From contig CAMJWS010000002.1 in NCBI GenBank assembly GCA_946409515.1, forward strand, positions 140,506 to 204,505: a stretch of 64,000 nucleotides of DNA, given 5' to 3'. Under the pieces are notes generated by a model. That model saw only the letters and a list, made by a program, of their open reading frames with translations, was not told the DNA's origin and did no database searches. A program made the position numbers and the translations under genes. Numbering within the stretch: position 1 is the first letter of the stretch; the number at the start of each line of letters is the position of its first letter. The DNA comes from an uncultured Caryophanales bacterium. Lineage in GTDB: Bacteria > Bacillota_I > Bacilli_A > RFN20 > CAG-826. Shown here piece by piece: positions 21,074-53,638 of the stretch.

Positions 21074-21300
21074 ATATAAAAGCGTCCATCTAAGGACGCT
21101 ATTTAGCGCGGTACCACCTTAGTTCTAAAGATTTATCTTTAGCACTTGATTACTTCTTTTCGTAGAAGTTCACGGAGGCTTACTATTAGTTCAGCTCTCA
21201 TACAAAGAAGTGATACCTTCTTATTCTTACTGTTTGGCTTCCACCATCCCAAACTCTCTATGAGCAGTTAATAAGAAGACTTGTCTTCTAGGACGAAATA
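21074..21300 (-). promoter_or_regulatory. T-box riboswitch of ileS
   Basis: The leader contains the T-box sequence AAGGTGGTACCGCG (21107-21120). A terminator hairpin AGCGTCC-TTAGAT-GGACGCT plus T run (21074-21100) follows, and stem I carries an AUC isoleucine specifier at 21212-21214 within GGTATCACTTC. Uncharged tRNA-Ile would stabilise the antiterminator and turn ileS on. Confidence 0.95.
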
Positions 21301-21329
21301 ATAATATTAGATTATTGACTTAAAGGCAA
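21301..21329 (-). promoter_or_regulatory. Promoter of the ileS T-box transcript
   Basis: TTGCCT (21324-21329), 17 bases and TATTAT (21301-21306) lie between the ftsZ stop and the T-box. Confidence 0.65.
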
Positions 21330-42699: not shown

Positions 42700-45300
42700 A
42701 TGCCAAAGATTACAATCATTGATGGAAACTCCTTGCTCTTTAGAGCATACTTCGCTACAGCGTATCCTGGTGTCGAGATTATGCGCACACAAGATGGTAC
42801 GCCCACTAACGCTATTTTTGCTTTCTCTAGCATGATCAATAAGATTTTATCCACCCTTAAAAAAGATGAGGGTTTAATGGTTGCTTTTGACGCTGGTAAA
42901 GATACTTTTAGAAAAGAACAACTTGAATCATATAAAGCTAATAGAAAACCAACTCCAGAAGATTTAGTAAGACAGTTCCCAATGGCTAGAGACTTCTTAA
43001 AAGCTCTTGGTATTTTCCAATTTGAGCAACATGGTTTTGAAGGCGATGATATTGCTGGTACTGTCGCTAAACTCGCCGAAAAAGAAGGCTATCAAGTTAC
43101 GATCTACACAAGTGATAGAGACTTCCTTCAACTCGTTGATAATAACATCACTGTTAATATCATTAGAAAAGGTATGTCTGATATCGTAGCGATGACTCCT
43201 GAAGTTGTTAAAGAAACGTACGGTTTTGAACCACTTCAAATCATTGATTATAAAGGCCTTAGAGGTGACGCGAGTGATAACCTACCAGGTATTAAAGGTG
43301 TAGGTGAAAAAACCGCGGTTAAATTAATCCAAGAATATGGTAGTTTTGATAATATTATTGCTCATGCGAGTGAGATTAAAGGTAAGCTTGGTGAGGCTAT
43401 TATTGCCGACCAAGAAACAGGTAGATTATCAAGAGATTTAGCCATTATTATAACTGATGTTCCGCTTCCATTCGGCATGAGTGACATTATTTATCGTGGC
43501 TATGATTTTTCTTCAATCAGTGAATACTGCCAAAAATATGAACTTAAACAGTTTATGTCCAAGATTAACCAAAAATGGAAAAGGGTTAATCTAGAAGAAA
43601 CCGAAATAAATGTTACAACCGTTTCTTCGTTCAAAGAAATCGGTTCTCCAAAAGAAGTTGGCCTTGCTTTAGATTATGCAGACGACAATTATTCAATCGG
43701 TTCTTTATATGGCCTTGCGATTGCTATTGAATCAGGTAATTATTACATCGGTTTAGATGATTTGAAGAAAGACAAATATGCTTTAGAATTACTCAAAAAC
43801 CCCGATATTAAAAAGTATTGTTCTGACTATAAAGCCATAAAGGTCGCATTGGCTAAGAATGGCATTGAGATTAATGGTCTTTTCTTTGATTTGTTAGTTG
43901 CTTCATATTTGGTTGACAGTTCCTTAAATCAAAACGATATCGAAATTGCTATGCGCATTTATGGAATCGATATTTCTTCTAGCGGAGAGACTTTGTCTCT
44001 TTTCACAAATGAAGATCCTAAAAAGACCGCAAGGATTGCTTTCTTTAGCTGGAAATTATATGAAAGAATCATCAAGGAATTAGAGGAAAAAGGTTCCTTA
44101 AAACTATATAACGAATTAGAAACACCACTTATCGATACCCTCGCAGATATGGAAATCGAAGGATTCCCATTAGATGCTAAAGTATTGGATGAATTTGGTG
44201 ATGAATATAAAAAGAAAGCTAAAGAGTTAGAAGAAGAAATCTACGCTTTAGCGGGTGAGAAATTTAACATTGCCTCCCCTAAACAAATTGGTGAAATCTT
44301 ATTCAATAAATTAGGGTTATACGCTAATAAGAAGTTATCCACTTCTGTTGATTCTTTAAAAGAAATTGCGGACGAACACCCTATCGTAAATAAGATTTTA
44401 GAATATCGTAAATATTTCAAATTAATCACTACTTACGTTGAGGGTTTAAAGAAGCATATTTATCCAGACGGCAAGATCTATGCGAAGTTTAATCAGGCAT
44501 TGACCACTACTGGAAGATTATCTTCTTCTGAACCAAATTTACAAAATATATCCGTTAGAGATGAAGAAGGCAAACTCATTAGAAAAGCCTTCTATTATCC
44601 AGATGAAAACTATGAGATTTTATCCCTTGACTATTCACAAATCGAACTAAGAGTTTTGGCTACTTTAAGTAACTGCCAAGGCTTAAAAGATGTCTTCCTC
44701 TCTCATGAAGATATTCATAGCGCAACTGCTAAGAAAATATTTAACCTTCAAGGAGAACCAACTCCATTACAAAGAAGAAAGGCTAAAACCGTTAACTTTG
44801 GGGTGGTATATGGTATCTCTGATTGGGGCTTAGCAGAGCAACTTGAAATCGGTCCTAAAGAAGCTAGAGAAATCATTAATTCTTTCTATAGTTCTTATCC
44901 AGAAGTTGCTACTTTCTTCCAACGTATCGTAGCAGACGCTACTAGAGATGGATATGTCTCCACTTTATTAGGAAGGCGTAGATACTTAAGAGAATTACAT
45001 GATGCGAATTATAACGTTAGAGAATCCGCAAAAAGAGCGGCTATGAATGCTCCCGTTCAAGGTACGGCTGCGGACTTGATTAAGTATGCAATGAATAAAG
45101 TCCATCAAGCTTTGCTTGATAATAAGTTAGAAACTCGTATGATTTGTCAAATCCATGACGAACTTATCTTTAGAGTTCCTAAGAAGGAAAAAGAAACTGC
45201 TTATAAATTAATTAAGGATATTATGGAGAATGCCTTACTTATCGATGTGCCATTAGAAGTTGATGGCGGTTTCGGTAGGGATTGGTATTCCGCGAAATAG
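42700..45300 (+). CDS. polA: DNA polymerase I
   Basis: This 866-residue enzyme has the 5'-3' exonuclease domain (IIDGNSLLFRAYFA, about 1-290, with ASDNLPGIKGVGEKTA) and the polymerase domain (TTGRLSSSEPNLQNI, LSLDYSQIELRVLA, RRKAKTVNFGVVYGIS, QIHDELIFRV). The middle 3'-5' exonuclease-like domain lacks the acidic active-site residues, as in Bacillus. It handles Okazaki fragment processing and repair. It is in a run with dnaE upstream and mutM-coaE 10 bases downstream. Confidence 0.97.
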   Translation: MPKITIIDGNSLLFRAYFATAYPGVEIMRTQDGTPTNAIFAFSSMINKILSTLKKDEGLMVAFDAGKDTFRKEQLESYKANRKPTPEDLVRQFPMARDFLKALGIFQFEQHGFEGDDIAGTVAKLAEKEGYQVTIYTSDRDFLQLVDNNITVNIIRKGMSDIVAMTPEVVKETYGFEPLQIIDYKGLRGDASDNLPGIKGVGEKTAVKLIQEYGSFDNIIAHASEIKGKLGEAIIADQETGRLSRDLAIIITDVPLPFGMSDIIYRGYDFSSISEYCQKYELKQFMSKINQKWKRVNLEETEINVTTVSSFKEIGSPKEVGLALDYADDNYSIGSLYGLAIAIESGNYYIGLDDLKKDKYALELLKNPDIKKYCSDYKAIKVALAKNGIEINGLFFDLLVASYLVDSSLNQNDIEIAMRIYGIDISSSGETLSLFTNEDPKKTARIAFFSWKLYERIIKELEEKGSLKLYNELETPLIDTLADMEIEGFPLDAKVLDEFGDEYKKKAKELEEEIYALAGEKFNIASPKQIGEILFNKLGLYANKKLSTSVDSLKEIADEHPIVNKILEYRKYFKLITTYVEGLKKHIYPDGKIYAKFNQALTTTGRLSSSEPNLQNISVRDEEGKLIRKAFYYPDENYEILSLDYSQIELRVLATLSNCQGLKDVFLSHEDIHSATAKKIFNLQGEPTPLQRRKAKTVNFGVVYGISDWGLAEQLEIGPKEAREIINSFYSSYPEVATFFQRIVADATRDGYVSTLLGRRRYLRELHDANYNVRESAKRAAMNAPVQGTAADLIKYAMNKVHQALLDNKLETRMICQIHDELIFRVPKKEKETAYKLIKDIMENALLIDVPLEVDGGFGRDWYSAK

Positions 45301-45310
45301 GTTGATAGTT

Positions 45311-46741
45311 ATGCCAGAATTACCAGAAGTAGAAACAGTTAAAAAGGTCTTATTACCGATTATTAAAGATCGTAAAATCCTTTCTATTGAAGTTTTAAGA
45401 AAATCAATCGTTAACGGTCTTGATAAAGAGTTTATTTCATTCTTTAAGAATGAAACATTTTTAAATATTACTAGACGTGGTAAATTCTTACTTATCCATT
45501 TAAGTAATGATAAAGTACTAATCTCCCATTTAAGAATGGAAGGTAAATATATTGAATTATTAGAAAGTGAAGAAAACACTAAATATGCACGTGTTGTCTT
45601 CCATTTAGATAACGGACATAAGCTTTGCTACGACGATTCAAGATCTTTTGGCAGAATGATTATGTCTAACGAGAAGAATTATCTAAAAGAAAAAGAAATC
45701 GCTAAATTAGGACCTGAGCCTTTTGAAGTTGATGATGTTTCTAACTTAGTCAAACAATGTAATAAAATGAGTCTTCCTATTAAGACCGCTTTACTTACTC
45801 AAACTCTTATTACTGGCTTAGGAAATATCTATGTTGATGAAGTTCTTTTCGCTAGCAAAATTCATCCTTTGACTCCAGCGAAATTCATCACCAAAGACGA
45901 ATGGGAAACCATCATCAAAGAATCAAAGAGAATTCTCACTGAAGCCATCAAAGCTGGTGGCTCCACAATCAAGAGTTATCACCCAGGTAAAGACATCTCA
46001 GGAGAATTCCAAACAAAACTCCTCGCGTATGGCCGAAAAGGTGAAAAGTGTGTTTCACGTCACGCTTTTATGCGATTTATTGCCGTAAATGGCCGTGGGA
46101 CCACATATTGTCCAAAGTGTCAAATCAAGCTTGGAGCGCCTATTAAAATCGCCATTGTGGGTAAGATTGCTTCAGGTAAATCCACTGTTCTAGATGAGTT
46201 TACTAAGGGTGGTTATTGCACTATTTCTTCTGATGAAATCGTCCATAAAATTTATGAGAAAATAGATGTCCAAAATCTCATCAATAAACGTCTTAAAGTG
46301 AAGGGTGAAAAATCGTTCGTTGATAACCTTAGAGATCATATTCAAAAGCATCCCGCTGATTTAGAAAAGTTAGAGAAGATTGTCCATCCATTAGTGAAGA
46401 AAGAAATCGAATCAACATTTAAGAATTCTAAGTCTCCTTTACTTGTGGCGGAAGTTCCTCTTCTTTTCAAAGCCAAGATGCAAGACATGTTTGATGTCAT
46501 CATTGGTGTGGATATCGACGAGAAAATTCAGATTGAAAGACTCAATCTTAGAGATAAAGAAAAAAGCGCTTTTTTAAAGCGCATTAATGATGAAAATAAT
46601 TTGTTTGAAGAACATAAGTTAGATTTAGACTTTATCGTTAATAATAACGATACCTTATCTATTTTAAGAAAAGATACTAAGGCAATTATTGATAAATTGC
46701 TAAGTCGCCTAAATCCACTTCTTGACCGCACATCGATCTAA
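45311..46741 (+). CDS. Fused formamidopyrimidine-DNA glycosylase and dephospho-CoA kinase
   Basis: One open frame of 476 residues joins two enzymes. Residues 1-275 are MutM/Fpg: MPELPEVETVKK with the catalytic Pro and Glu at 2-3, GRMIM, LITGLGNIYVDEVLFAS, the helix-two-turn-helix, and a zinc finger. Residues 278-476 are CoaE: the P-loop GKIASGKST at about 284-292, ISSDEIVHKIYE, HPLVKKEIE and VAEVPLLFK. The linker is only a few residues. The finger keeps C247, C267 and C270, but the second Cys is Arg with a His beside it (CVSRH). The start at 45311 is set by MPELPEVE; no Shine-Dalgarno site is visible. The 3' end overlaps dnaI by 56 bases. Confidence 0.93.
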   Translation: MPELPEVETVKKVLLPIIKDRKILSIEVLRKSIVNGLDKEFISFFKNETFLNITRRGKFLLIHLSNDKVLISHLRMEGKYIELLESEENTKYARVVFHLDNGHKLCYDDSRSFGRMIMSNEKNYLKEKEIAKLGPEPFEVDDVSNLVKQCNKMSLPIKTALLTQTLITGLGNIYVDEVLFASKIHPLTPAKFITKDEWETIIKESKRILTEAIKAGGSTIKSYHPGKDISGEFQTKLLAYGRKGEKCVSRHAFMRFIAVNGRGTTYCPKCQIKLGAPIKIAIVGKIASGKSTVLDEFTKGGYCTISSDEIVHKIYEKIDVQNLINKRLKVKGEKSFVDNLRDHIQKHPADLEKLEKIVHPLVKKEIESTFKNSKSPLLVAEVPLLFKAKMQDMFDVIIGVDIDEKIQIERLNLRDKEKSAFLKRINDENNLFEEHKLDLDFIVNNNDTLSILRKDTKAIIDKLLSRLNPLLDRTSI

Positions 46742-47594
46742 TTGTCTTCACGATTTGTTTAGACATAATCGCACCGGCTTTTGAATTGCATTCATAGAGT
46801 ACTTCGATTTCATCTAATGTGAAATTACTGGTAAAGACTGTGAAGAGTCTTTTGTTATAACGTGAAGAGATGATTTCATTGACGATTGCGTCTCTAATGA
46901 AGTCATTTTTGAATTCATGACCAAAGTCATCGATAACCAAGACTGGAACTGTGCAGTATTGTTCTAATTTTTTCTTGAATTCTTCATTGTTTTTCTTGTT
47001 TAAGTCACTTAATTCAAGAATACGTTTTGAAGCGTTCATGAAGCAGATTGGAATTTTACCTTTAAGTTCTCTTTTTGCTAAGTCGATAACCATCGCTGCA
47101 GCGTAATATGACTTACCACTTCTCATACCACCAGTTAAGTAGATCCAGTTAGTTTCTTCATTCTTGATGTACTTGTTATAAACAACAGTAGCTTTTGTTC
47201 TACCTTTAGTTCTATCAAGTTCTGGCATTGTAACATCAAGCCATTCATTTGGGAAATCTTGAATGAGGAACTGTCTTTCAAAACTGACACGTTTTAGAAG
47301 TGTTGGACATGGAATAAGCTGGGTTTCCACGACACCGTTATTAAATGTAACTTTACTTGTTAAATAAGCATTTTCCTTCTTGCACTGTTTTAGTCCAGGA
47401 CAATTTGAGCAGTAATTGATGTCTCTTGCAAAATCATAGATTTTGATTACGTTAGAATCAATATCTTCATCGCTCATTCCTAAACTCTTACAATACTTGA
47501 TTGCTTTTGGACATTGGTGAATCACTTCTTTCATTTGATCCAACAAGGAGTCATCTGCTGTGATTTTTAAATTTTCAACTTTAAGCCTTTCCAC
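46686..47594 (-). CDS. dnaI: Primosomal protein DnaI, helicase loader
   Basis: This roughly 302-residue protein has an N-terminal zinc-binding region with YCSNCPGLKQCKKE (about 80-95), then an AAA+ ATPase with TGGMRSGKSYYAAAMV (Walker A, about 165-180) and VLVIDDFGHEF (Walker B). It loads the replicative helicase with DnaB and DnaD. The start is taken as GTG at 47594, because the GGAGG inside the dnaB end is 8 bases away; the in-frame GTG/ATG at 47603 and 47600 are too close to it. The 3' end overlaps the convergent mutM-coaE by 56 bases. Confidence 0.92.
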   Translation of the reverse strand: MERLKVENLKITADDSLLDQMKEVIHQCPKAIKYCKSLGMSDEDIDSNVIKIYDFARDINYCSNCPGLKQCKKENAYLTSKVTFNNGVVETQLIPCPTLLKRVSFERQFLIQDFPNEWLDVTMPELDRTKGRTKATVVYNKYIKNEETNWIYLTGGMRSGKSYYAAAMVIDLAKRELKGKIPICFMNASKRILELSDLNKKNNEEFKKKLEQYCTVPVLVIDDFGHEFKNDFIRDAIVNEIISSRYNKRLFTVFTSNFTLDEIEVLYECNSKAGAIMSKQIVKTIRSMCGQEVDLGDLAIYQ

Positions 47595-48897
47595 CGTCAT
47601 CACCTCCGTTTAATTCATCCATTAATCTGTCCCACTCTAATTCCCAGTCACCATCATCATTGGCCTTGGACTTATCAGTGGTATTTTCTTTATTTGGTTT
47701 AATGCTCTCCACGGGGAGCACCATTTTCTTTGTTTCTTTCTTTCCGCGCGTTTTCTTATCTATCTTTCTTAAATAGTTCATTGTATCCACTGCGGTTCTA
47801 GCGTTTTCTCTCACTAAGGAAGCTGCAACTTTTTCAGCATAGGCTCTTGAGAGAACGTTATCCGCTTTTGTGAGAACGTAATCCACGACTGCGTTAATCA
47901 CTGGATTTGGTAGATGGTAGTTCTTAGATAAATCATTGATTAATCTAATATCCGCAGTTGCAGGTTTTGTACCATCTTGTAAGTAAGCTAGATAATCCTT
48001 AGGCGCTTTTGTTTCCATAAGATTGATCTTCTTAGCGAGATCACTTGAACCAGTATTGAGGTTTGGCCCTTCATCTACATCCTTACCTTTATAACGGTAT
48101 TTGTAGTTACTTTGTTCTTGCATGATCTTCGTTAATTTATCGAAGTCAATTCTATGGCCTTTTGGCTTTTCCAAGTCATAGACTTGATTGACAAGATTCG
48201 CTGCATCTTTTTCATTAACACCGTTGAGTGTTGCAAGTCTTTCGACTTCCTTCATTTCTTCTTTTCTGAAGGCTGATTCTTTGAGCTGCGATATTTCCTT
48301 TAAGGAAGCAAAGAACTCTTCATAATTGAACTGTCCTTTAATCTTGCCTCTATTGCGACCTTTGACTACTTGTTTGCTATCAGCCGCTTCGACGAAGGCT
48401 TCATCATCAAGTTGTGGATGGAAGACTTCTGCGAAACTTGCGGTGATTTCTGTGCCGTAGTTTTGTTTAGCGTCCAGTAAGTAGATCTTCTTAAGTCGAG
48501 AAGCATTACTTTCACCGATGCTTCTAATGAGCATGCCATATAGTAACGTATCATCGAAGAAGCCGCTTGGGGACTTAGGAGCATATAGTTCGTAATGGTA
48601 GATTTTGAAATCTTCACCTTCACTGACAAATGTCTTAAGTAGACCCGCTGCTTCGAGATATCTTCTGGCATCAACAAACGCACTAGCAGGCATTCTCATA
48701 CGTAAGAATACTTGCTCGTGTGTGCACAGCGGTGAGACTCTTTCGTTATTAGCTTCACTCCAAAGAGTCATGTACAAAGATAAGGCTTCAAAGCCTATCA
48801 TTGGTTGGTAAAGATTGCTCAAAGTATCACGGTCATAATCCGCGATGAGAGAGGCTAATCTTACTTCTAGAAAATCTTGGTGAGCTAATACTTTCAT
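47581..48897 (-). CDS. dnaB: Replication initiation and membrane attachment protein DnaB (DnaD family)
   Basis: This 438-residue protein has NLYQPMIGFEALSLYMTLWS, the conserved N-terminal block of Gram-positive DnaB, then DnaD-like helical repeats (about 180-360) and an acidic tail (DGDWELEWDRLMDELNGGDDGG). With DnaD and DnaI it loads the helicase at origins. The start MKVLAHQDF is chosen from family alignment; the frame is open further upstream to 48996, adding a hydrophobic stretch, but no ribosome site is there. A GATAAT -10 lies about 35 bases upstream. Four DnaA boxes lie just beyond. Confidence 0.9.
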   Translation of the reverse strand: MKVLAHQDFLEVRLASLIADYDRDTLSNLYQPMIGFEALSLYMTLWSEANNERVSPLCTHEQVFLRMRMPASAFVDARRYLEAAGLLKTFVSEGEDFKIYHYELYAPKSPSGFFDDTLLYGMLIRSIGESNASRLKKIYLLDAKQNYGTEITASFAEVFHPQLDDEAFVEAADSKQVVKGRNRGKIKGQFNYEEFFASLKEISQLKESAFRKEEMKEVERLATLNGVNEKDAANLVNQVYDLEKPKGHRIDFDKLTKIMQEQSNYKYRYKGKDVDEGPNLNTGSSDLAKKINLMETKAPKDYLAYLQDGTKPATADIRLINDLSKNYHLPNPVINAVVDYVLTKADNVLSRAYAEKVAASLVRENARTAVDTMNYLRKIDKKTRGKKETKKMVLPVESIKPNKENTTDKSKANDDGDWELEWDRLMDELNGGDDGGKA

Positions 48898-48988
48898 AAG
48901 GGAGTCTTTCAATGTTGGTGTCGCTATTATCACACATAGAAAAAGCAAAAGTAAAATGAAAAAGATATGCACATTTTTAGGCGCATAC

Positions 48989-49087
48989 TTATCCACATCA
49001 TGTGTATAAGCATTTATATATCAATATATAAATAAGTTGAAAAATCACACTTTTTTAAAACTTATCCACATTAAAATTTGTGGAAAA
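48989..49087. promoter_or_regulatory. Cluster of DnaA boxes around an AT-rich core
   Basis: There are four candidate boxes: TTATCCACA at 48989-48997, TGTGTATAA (reverse of TTATACACA) at 49001-49009, TTATCCACA at 49062-49070 and TGTGGAAAA (reverse of TTTTCCACA, one mismatch) at 49079-49087. Each pair faces inward, and the 50 bases between are nearly pure A/T. The cluster sits between dnaB-dnaI and pfkA. Confidence 0.7.
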
Positions 49088-49170
49088 AAGAGTTTTTGAA
49101 AAGACTTTTGCAAAATTGAGTATATAATGTTAGTCGTAATAATAATTTTATTATTAAGGAGAAATGACTC

Positions 49171-50133
49171 ATGATTAGAAAAATTGCGATCTTAACAAGT
49201 GGCGGTGATGCCCCAGGTATGAATGCGTGTTTACGCGCTTGTATCCGTGCAGGCTTATACCAAGGCAAAGAAATGTATGTTGTCTATGATGGCTTACGTG
49301 GATTAGTCGAAGGTGATATCCGTCAAGTTAATAAAGATTTCACACAAGATATCATTAATAGAGGCGGCACAATTATTAGAAGTGCCCGTATTCCAGAATT
49401 CAAAGAAGAAGCTGTGAGTAAGAAAGCAGCGGATAACCTTAGAGACTTTGAAATCGATGCTTTAATTGGTATCGGTGGCGATGGCACTTTTAGAGGCTTA
49501 CAAGCCTTATCTAAACATGGCGTAATCTGTATTGGTATTCCAGGTACAATTGATAACGATGTCGGTAGCACTGATGAAACAATTGGCTTTGCCACCGCTT
49601 TAAACACTATTTGTGATTGTGTCGATAAACTTAAAGATACATCTGGCTCTCACCAACGTTGTTCCTTAATTGAAGTTATGGGTCGTCACTGTGGTGATTT
49701 GGCAATGTTTGCTGCTTTAGCAGAAGGTGCTGAAGGTGTCATCTGTGTCGAACATCCACTTAAGAAGGAAGTCTTATTCCGTAAATTAAGAAAAATGAAA
49801 GCCCAAAATAAGAGCCACGCGATTATTATCGTCAGTGAAAACTTATTAGACATTAACGAATTAGCGGGTGAAATCGCTAAGGAAACAGGCTTTGATACAA
49901 GAACTGAAGTTCTTGGTAGATTACAAAGAGGTGGTTCTCCAACCGCGCACGACAGAATCTTGGCCGCAAGATTCGGTGCTAAAGCTGTTGAACTCCTTTG
50001 TGATAAAGAACCAACAAGTAGAATTGTTGGTATCAAACAAAACGAAATCGTTGATTACCCAATCGACGAAGCCGTTGAAATGAAACATAGGCATACACAT
50101 GGATTAAGGGACTTAATCGATATGTTGCAATAA
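49171..50133 (+). CDS. pfkA: 6-phosphofructokinase
   Basis: This 320-residue ATP-dependent enzyme has LTSGGDAPGMNACLRACIRA (ATP and substrate loop), IGIGGDGTFRGL, GIPGTIDNDVGSTDETIGF with the catalytic aspartates, and VLGRLQRGGSPTAHDR. It commits sugar to glycolysis. AAGGAG precedes the ATG. A TATAAT lies upstream, close to the DnaA-box cluster. The usual partner pyk is not adjacent; thrS follows after 60 bases. Confidence 0.98.
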   Translation: MIRKIAILTSGGDAPGMNACLRACIRAGLYQGKEMYVVYDGLRGLVEGDIRQVNKDFTQDIINRGGTIIRSARIPEFKEEAVSKKAADNLRDFEIDALIGIGGDGTFRGLQALSKHGVICIGIPGTIDNDVGSTDETIGFATALNTICDCVDKLKDTSGSHQRCSLIEVMGRHCGDLAMFAALAEGAEGVICVEHPLKKEVLFRKLRKMKAQNKSHAIIIVSENLLDINELAGEIAKETGFDTRTEVLGRLQRGGSPTAHDRILAARFGAKAVELLCDKEPTSRIVGIKQNEIVDYPIDEAVEMKHRHTHGLRDLIDMLQ

Positions 50134-52111: not shown

Positions 52112-53638
52112 ATGAAAAAAAGTATTATTGCATTTGCGATAGTTGAAGCTAGTCTATTAGCGACATCTTTATTAGGTTGTTCCACTCCTAATTCTTCTAC
52201 GCCTATTTCTTCAAGCGATAATAGTTCAATATCATCCAGTATAGAATCCAGTTCTTCTAGCGAGTCATCTAGTTCATCTAGTGTACCTGTTCATGAGATT
52301 GATTCTCTTAGAGAGTTGAACTTTACATATAACTCTACTACTGATAGCTATTGGCTTGATGGCGCTAAATCTACAGATATCTCTGGTAATTTAGTCATCC
52401 CAAGTACATATAATGGAAAACCTGTAGTCGGTATTAATATGCAAGCTTTTCAGTTTTGTAAATCATTAAAATCAGTGGTCATTCCAAGTTCTATTAGAGA
52501 AATAGAATCTGAAGCCTTTGCGTTATGTGAAAATTTAGAATCAGTCACCTTGAATGAAGGTTTAACAATAATTAGTTATTATGCTTTTCATAGATGTGAG
52601 AAATTAAAATCAATCGTTATTCCTGATACCGTCACCTTCTTAGGAGACTGTTCATTTTTGGACTGTCTTTCTTTAGAAAGCGCAAAGCTAAGTAAATATA
52701 TTACTGTGATTGGTGACTATATGTTTGAAGGATGTTCAAAATTGAAATCAGTTAACATTCCTGAAGGGGTTACTCGCATTGGCGAATTTGCCTTTAGAAG
52801 TTGTGATTTCAATGCGGTTACAATACCAAATACTGTTAAAGAAATTGCCGTTAGCGCTTTTAATGGCAATAAATCTTTAAAGAGTGTCACTATTCCAGAA
52901 AGTGTGACTACTTTAGATTCTTCCGCTTTTATCAATTGTTCATCATTAGAAGCAATTAATGTAGATACAAACAATACTGTGTATTGTTCTATTGATGGTG
53001 TCCTTTTCAACAAAGAAAAAACTACACTGATGAAATTCCCATCAAACTGGGCAAAGGCTTTTACTTTTCCAAGTAGCGTTACCACTATTGGTGACTATGC
53101 GTTCAATAGCTGTGATCGTTTAGTATCATACGAAGTTCCAAACAACATTACTTCTATTGGTAAAAATGCTTTTTCTAGTTCCAAACATTTAGAATCAATT
53201 AATATTCCAAATAGTGTCACCTCAATTGGAATGTACTGTTTTGCGTGGGATACCGCTTTAAAAGAGATTACCATTCCTGGAAGTGTTTCCACTCTTGATC
53301 AAGGAACATTTAGAGATTGTAGCGTTCTTGAATCAGTAACATTAGAAGAAGGCATTACCTATATTGGCCATTCACCATTTATGTGGTGTACATCTTTAAA
53401 ATCAATTGTTATTCCTCATAGCGTCACTAATCTTGGCTTACAAGCTTTATATGAAAGCTTCTTCAATAATATCTACTACAAGGGAACAGAAGAAGAATGG
53501 AACAATATTGAAAGTCTTTCCAGACCACCATACATTTATAACGTGAGTGAAACCACTTTATCTTTCTATAGTGAAACTATACCAACAGGCACTGGTTCTT
53601 ATTGGCACTATGTAAATGATGTGCCTACCATTTGGTAA
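52112..53638 (+). CDS. BspA-like leucine-rich repeat lipoprotein
   Basis: This 508-residue protein has a lipoprotein signal (VEASLLATSLLGC, cysteine about residue 23), then a serine-only linker (about 28-60) and about 14 repeats of the treponemal LRR_5 type, such as SLKSVTIPESVTTLDSSAF and KSIVIPHSVTNLGLQAL, ending in a tail with YKGTEEEWNNI. Such proteins are exposed on the surface and often bind host or microbial partners; the ligand is unknown. AAGAGGTG precedes the ATG. Its codon use and serine linker resemble the lipoprotein at 63078. It is not in an operon. Confidence 0.88.
   Translation: MKKSIIAFAIVEASLLATSLLGCSTPNSSTPISSSDNSSISSSIESSSSSESSSSSSVPVHEIDSLRELNFTYNSTTDSYWLDGAKSTDISGNLVIPSTYNGKPVVGINMQAFQFCKSLKSVVIPSSIREIESEAFALCENLESVTLNEGLTIISYYAFHRCEKLKSIVIPDTVTFLGDCSFLDCLSLESAKLSKYITVIGDYMFEGCSKLKSVNIPEGVTRIGEFAFRSCDFNAVTIPNTVKEIAVSAFNGNKSLKSVTIPESVTTLDSSAFINCSSLEAINVDTNNTVYCSIDGVLFNKEKTTLMKFPSNWAKAFTFPSSVTTIGDYAFNSCDRLVSYEVPNNITSIGKNAFSSSKHLESINIPNSVTSIGMYCFAWDTALKEITIPGSVSTLDQGTFRDCSVLESVTLEEGITYIGHSPFMWCTSLKSIVIPHSVTNLGLQALYESFFNNIYYKGTEEEWNNIESLSRPPYIYNVSETTLSFYSETIPTGTGSYWHYVNDVPTIW

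Follow-up and report, generated by a model that had tools for sequence, protein, structure and literature searches.

To our knowledge, little is known about how bacteria match the supply of helicase loader to the activity of the initiator, and a dense array of DnaA boxes between the leftward gene dnaB and the rightward gene pfkA of an uncultured member of the Bacilli raises the question of what such an array controls. DnaA is well known as a transcription factor. The window (the whole stretch of 64,000 nucleotides that was analysed) covers C2:140506-204505 of a draft genome of 1,323,416 bases in 16 contigs that is 91.75% complete; the host family consists of uncultured gut bacteria, and the array sits at 189.5 kb of C2 in an intergenic gap of 273 bp. 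From sequence comparison, we put at roughly 80% the probability that the array serves to regulate dnaB-dnaI through a family-specific promoter under DnaA control, which would amount to direct wiring of the initiator to the next step of initiation. The features of the locus are the following, with negative distances counted from the inferred dnaB transcription start.

46686..47603, minus strand: dnaI-like loader ATPase with an IstB_IS21 ATPase domain, overlapping the end of dnaB
47581..48897, minus strand: dnaB, helicase-loader protein with a DnaB_2 domain, ATG at 48897
48926..48955, minus strand: inferred dnaB promoter, TTTACT - 18 - GATAAT, with extended TG
48965..48973, plus strand: box-like site R0, ATATGCACA, a weak match that immediately precedes the -35 element on its upstream side, at about -50
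48989..48997, plus strand: DnaA box R1, TTATCCACA, centre at about -74
49001..49009, minus strand: DnaA box TTATACACA, retained at only 6 of the 13 genus loci with this region
49012..49033, no strand: 22-bp A/T dyad, ATTTATATAT-CA-ATATATAAAT, at about -103
49062..49070, plus strand: DnaA box R2, TTATCCACA, at about -147
49079..49087, minus strand: DnaA box R3, TTTTCCACA, facing R2 from 8 bp away, at about -164
49171..50133, plus strand: pfkA, phosphofructokinase, the divergent neighbour, ATG at 49171

The dnaB gene and the dnaI-like gene belong to the same operon. The initial annotation had placed helicase-loader genes to the left of the gap and pfkA to its right, an assignment borne out by the DnaB_2, IstB_IS21 ATPase and phosphofructokinase calls, and had described two perfect boxes and two near matches in inward-facing pairs, all four of which are present as listed. 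These four boxes form two converging pairs around a 52-bp core that is A/T-rich, as had been said of the roughly 50 bases between the pairs, but is not pure A/T. An alternative, longer GTG start of dnaB at 48996 would read through box R1; the start conserved among the aligned relatives is the ATG at 48897. Since the -10 element of dnaB lies at 48926-48931, transcription would start near 48919. The leader at 48898-48925 is short and lacks a clear ribosome-binding site, and the dnaB mRNA may be nearly leaderless because the -10 element is only about 13 nt from the ATG in some relatives.

The array stands out against the rest of the genome. Exact copies of TTATCCACA number 32 genome-wide, 16 per strand, whereas the reversed control occurs 5 and 6 times on the two strands; the two copies in the array are the genome's only pair within 100 bp. 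Among 56 TTWTCCACA sites in the genome, three fall within 150 bp at only two places, here and upstream of dnaA; boxes this dense at many unrelated places, which the initial annotation had named as grounds for abandoning its proposal, are thus not seen. Single-mismatch boxes occur 41 times in the whole window against 18.7 in shuffles, and in view of this excess isolated single-mismatch matches mean little. A chance origin of the array is ruled out by the shuffles, the reversed motifs and the genome-wide counts. As expected of a DnaA-regulated promoter, the array contains at least two DnaA boxes identical to boxes of the genome's own oriC. Outside the window, at C2:98265-98282, two TTTTCCACA boxes lie in direct contact near the terminus-like skew maximum at about 100 kb.

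Within the source genus, dnaB is found in 15 of 16 genomes and all 13 loci that hold the region keep R1, R2, R3, the dyad and the -10 element, with DnaB identity as low as 61%. The weak site R0 reads ATATGCACA or ATATACACA in 13 of these 13 loci, lies 24 bp from R1, slightly more than two helical turns, and is also box-like in some other genera, as judged from alignment by eye outside the genus. Across the family, dnaB is found in 138 of 146 genomes and 35 genera. Upstream DNA was read for 91 family dnaB loci, with some from every genus, and 88 were counted with the source locus included; L055, L063 and L064, in which the contig-edge rule misplaced the dnaB start, were left out of these counts, and L041, L046 and L143 are absent from the locus table owing to upstream sequences that are too short. 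Strict boxes, defined as TTATCCACA, TTTTCCACA and TTATACACA, occur 177 times in the 22,880 bases upstream of dnaB at the 88 loci; 200 dinucleotide shuffles gave a mean of 1.25 and never more than 5, and the reversed motifs gave none. At least one strict box is present at 70/88 loci and in 23/34 genera, and at least two at 55/88 loci and in 19/34 genera. With no prior choice of motif, the commonest 9-mers upstream of dnaB are TTTTCCACA, present in 21 genera, and TTATCCACA, present in 20. Strict boxes are missing upstream of dnaB at 18 of the 88 loci and in 11 of the 34 genera, mostly the more distant ones, and control of this kind is therefore not essential to the family.

The R2-R3 arrangement is even more specific to this position. 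The pair TTWTCCACA-N8-TGTGGAWAA is present in 36 of 146 family genomes, with one copy in each and none for the reversed control, and in 35 of the 36 it sits 139-173 bp upstream of dnaB. Outside the family, the 360 nt preceding the dnaB match contain no strict box in any of 40 genomes, hand-picked from a class search with a dnaB match in 274 of 296 genomes and comprising 6 from one family of the same order and 34 from 14 further families of the class. The array at the dnaB promoter was apparently gained within one family of Bacilli.

The boxes follow the promoter rather than the start codon. Box R1 is carried by 48 loci from 17 genera (a count that leaves out L055, L063, L064 and L059), and in 36 of them, from 13 genera, ATTAT, the complement of ATAAT in the -10 element, starts 61-63 nt from R1; any other offset accounts for at most one match. 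Across these 36 loci the spacing between R1 and the -10 element has a standard deviation of 0.55 nt, whereas that between R1 and the ATG has one of 5.76 nt and spans 70-91 nt, a variation of 21 nt. Conserved boxes at a fixed distance from the promoter, as seen here, are expected of DnaA regulation. The extended -10 element TGnnATAAT of the promoter stands within the first 75 nt at 43 of 88 loci, compared with 0-2 in later blocks on the same strand, and in 16 of 34 genera. Among 30 promoters inspected, the -35 element is at most one letter off TTGACA in 16, being near TTGAAA in relatives, and no strict box overlies the dnaB core promoter. The initial annotation's proposal of a DnaA-controlled promoter gains support from this phasing to the -10 element, from the family-wide conservation and from the way the boxes accompany dnaB.

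That last point bears on whether DnaA could also, or mainly, set the expression of pfkA and so link glycolysis to replication. Such divergent control would fit the position of R3, which ends about 35 bp from a TATAAT of pfkA in the window, and the block from R3 to this TATAAT, which aligns without gaps within the genus. The genomes in which the two genes are apart point the other way. Twenty were searched and 18 read, with pfkA 154 kb off (G021), on another contig or behind intervening DNA; G025 and G134, where pfkA adjoins dnaB at a contig edge, were left out. Boxes are found on the dnaB side in 13 of the 18 (12 of 17 by strict box count, plus G042 by the pair pattern), on the pfkA side in one and on neither side in four, the dnaB copies without boxes being those of G070, G048, G054, G091 and G019. 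G019 is also the only one of the 18 with strict boxes within the 174-300 nt of sequence upstream of pfkA: its three-box array adjoins pfkA right where a contig begins, its dnaB copy has another neighbour, and it is the one case that favours pfkA over dnaB. With G019 excepted, the boxes thus stay with dnaB when neighbours change, as expected of a DnaA-regulated dnaB promoter, and pfkA as the main target is rejected; pfkA is probably not a target of the array, and we regard divergent control as quite improbable.

Dense boxes outside oriC are also known from datA of E. coli and from the oriC-proximal DnaA-box clusters of B. subtilis, which are titration or inactivation sites, and the array could by analogy be a site or cluster that lies in the gap by chance and sequesters DnaA without controlling dnaB. 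Its boxes are strong and clustered, comparable with those of oriC, and they lie upstream of the core promoter without overlapping it, both of which suit titration. A titration site, however, need neither hold a fixed distance to a -10 element nor stay with dnaB where pfkA is elsewhere, and the array differs from datA and the B. subtilis clusters in being phased to a promoter, which leaves this explanation unlikely. The initial annotation had further considered a small origin-like element, and a secondary or cryptic origin would find some support in the paired DnaA boxes flanking an A/T-rich dyad and in the possibility that an alternative origin loads helicase with loaders made next door. The genome has a canonical oriC at dnaA, at about 222.1 kb of C3, in the order yidC-rnpA-dnaA-dnaN-yaaA-recF (dnaA from Pfam, the genes by eye from open reading frames), with DnaA boxes both ahead of dnaA and in the dnaA-dnaN interval, and along C3 the GC skew stays mostly below zero as far as dnaA and is positive over the final stretch. 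The skew of C2 changes sign near 100 kb, going from positive to negative, which is terminus-like, and the array falls within an excursion at 180-220 kb that reverts. The array thus adjoins neither dnaA nor dnaN and marks no lasting skew minimum, and oriC lies elsewhere; with the boxes phased to a promoter as well, the skew profile and the dnaA-dnaN region rule out the origin reading of the array as first proposed, and a secondary origin is extremely improbable. The block at about 180-220 kb of C2, where the GC skew opposes that of the surrounding negative-skew stretch and genes point both ways, is perhaps an inverted segment.

A DnaA-controlled dnaB-dnaI promoter has partial precedents. The array shares its box 9-mers and their clustering with the genome's own oriC, from which it differs in having no dnaA or dnaN and in carrying the R2-N8-R3 inverted pair, which is found at dnaB and not at oriC. 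DnaA-linked operons were reportedly described by Goranov in PNAS in 2005. The sda promoter of B. subtilis likewise has DnaA boxes outside oriC that act in transcription control, although its target is a sporulation checkpoint gene rather than dnaB-dnaI (PMC4447404). The direct DnaA targets named in its introduction are sda, ywlC, vpr, yyzF-yydD, trmE-noc and ywcI-sacT, without dnaB-dnaI, and most B. subtilis DnaA sites bound in vitro are described there as not seen bound in vivo (PMC4447404). This last point counts against the DnaA-controlled promoter. In Caulobacter crescentus, according to another study, the dnaB gene has predicted DnaA boxes upstream and belongs to the DnaA regulon (PMC8203912); that gene, however, encodes the helicase itself in an unrelated phylum, in contrast to the Bacilli loaders DnaB and DnaI with their different array. 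A search of titles and abstract openings found no description of DnaA boxes at a Bacilli loader operon, which does not establish absence from print.

Sequence comparison establishes the array of boxes, their phasing to the promoter and their association with dnaB, and the identity of its boxes with those of the same genome's oriC suggests that DnaA binds them. DnaA would occupy the strong box R1 at about -74, together with a facing or weak partner site at about -63 or -50 depending on the genus, and would also be bound at R2 (about -147) and its partner R3 (about -164); together these sites extend to the -35/-10 core of a sigma-A-type promoter without covering it. R1-bound DnaA may anchor cooperative binding toward the -35 element and, with R2 and R3, form a looped complex, such that the level or nucleotide state of DnaA would set the amount of helicase loader made. 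Activation seems somewhat likelier than repression, at about 60:40, given that the core promoter is free of strict boxes; a looped repressor would fit too, and the near-consensus -35 element of many relatives implies that an activator may be unneeded.

The dyad between the box pairs is an additional, unexplained structural part of the array. Its centre lies 29.5-34 nt from the start of R1 in 39 loci from 10 genera, of which 38 could be anchored on the outer TTTA and TAAA, the exception being L061. Of 24 distinct cases among the anchored loci, 9 have C-G as the third inner pair and 15 have T-A, with no mixed pair, and 26 of the 28 inner G or C letters find a pairing partner. A first test of arm swaps was biased because the dyads had been pre-chosen as the best palindromes; in the anchored test, right-arm swaps reached the observed pairing in 0/2000 trials across genera and 3/2000 within genera, figures from which relatedness is not fully removed. 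By these counts the arms of the dyad covary. With at most one mismatch, the dyad is found at the expected place in 10 of 12 genomes of g22 and g23 and has no match in the other two, and it is single-copy in nine of the 10 genomes with the pattern, G129 having one further one-mismatch site. It is weak or off-centre at loci of g7, g9, g13, g16, g18, g25 and g27, though R1 and R2 are definable there. As a single-copy element, save for the extra site in G129, it is unlikely to be a regulon-wide repressor operator, and the spacing of its outer half-sites, anywhere from 4 to 12 nt, makes it unlike a rigid dimer site. The dyad probably serves in bending or looping, or as the site of a second protein, and its role may be that of a loop apex, a cruciform or the dimer site of a protein with a single target. 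The single-copy dyad keeps its self-complementarity despite changes of sequence and inner length, and on a further reading, rather unlikely in our estimate, DnaA bound on both sides would therefore either drive a structural switch, in which a loop forms together with a cruciform or hairpin, or join the DnaD and DnaB proteins in an origin-like complex at their own promoter. The helicase loader would in that case respond directly to the activity of the initiator and regulate how much of itself is made.

Several other features of the window are of separate interest. Positions 45260-46741 hold a single open frame of 493 amino acids that is MutM-like (formamidopyrimidine-DNA glycosylase) and continues in frame into CoaE (dephospho-CoA kinase), a possible MutM-CoaE gene fusion judged by eye from the translation. 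An ordinary T-box leader (Rfam RF00230, 103.8 bits) lies at 21089-21302 on the minus strand ahead of a leftward gene of 910 amino acids, and 52112-53638 encodes a predicted lipoprotein that has a stretch rich in serine as well as repeats that are leucine-rich-like by eye. The pfkA leader contains an inverted repeat, TAATAATAA-loop-TTATTATTA, at 49137-49156, just before the ribosome-binding site; the stem reaches p <= 0.05 against shuffles in 36 of 71 family loci, and in other genera its arms differ yet match, as in TGCTATTT/AAATAGCA of g23, so that the repeat is possibly an RNA or operator element.
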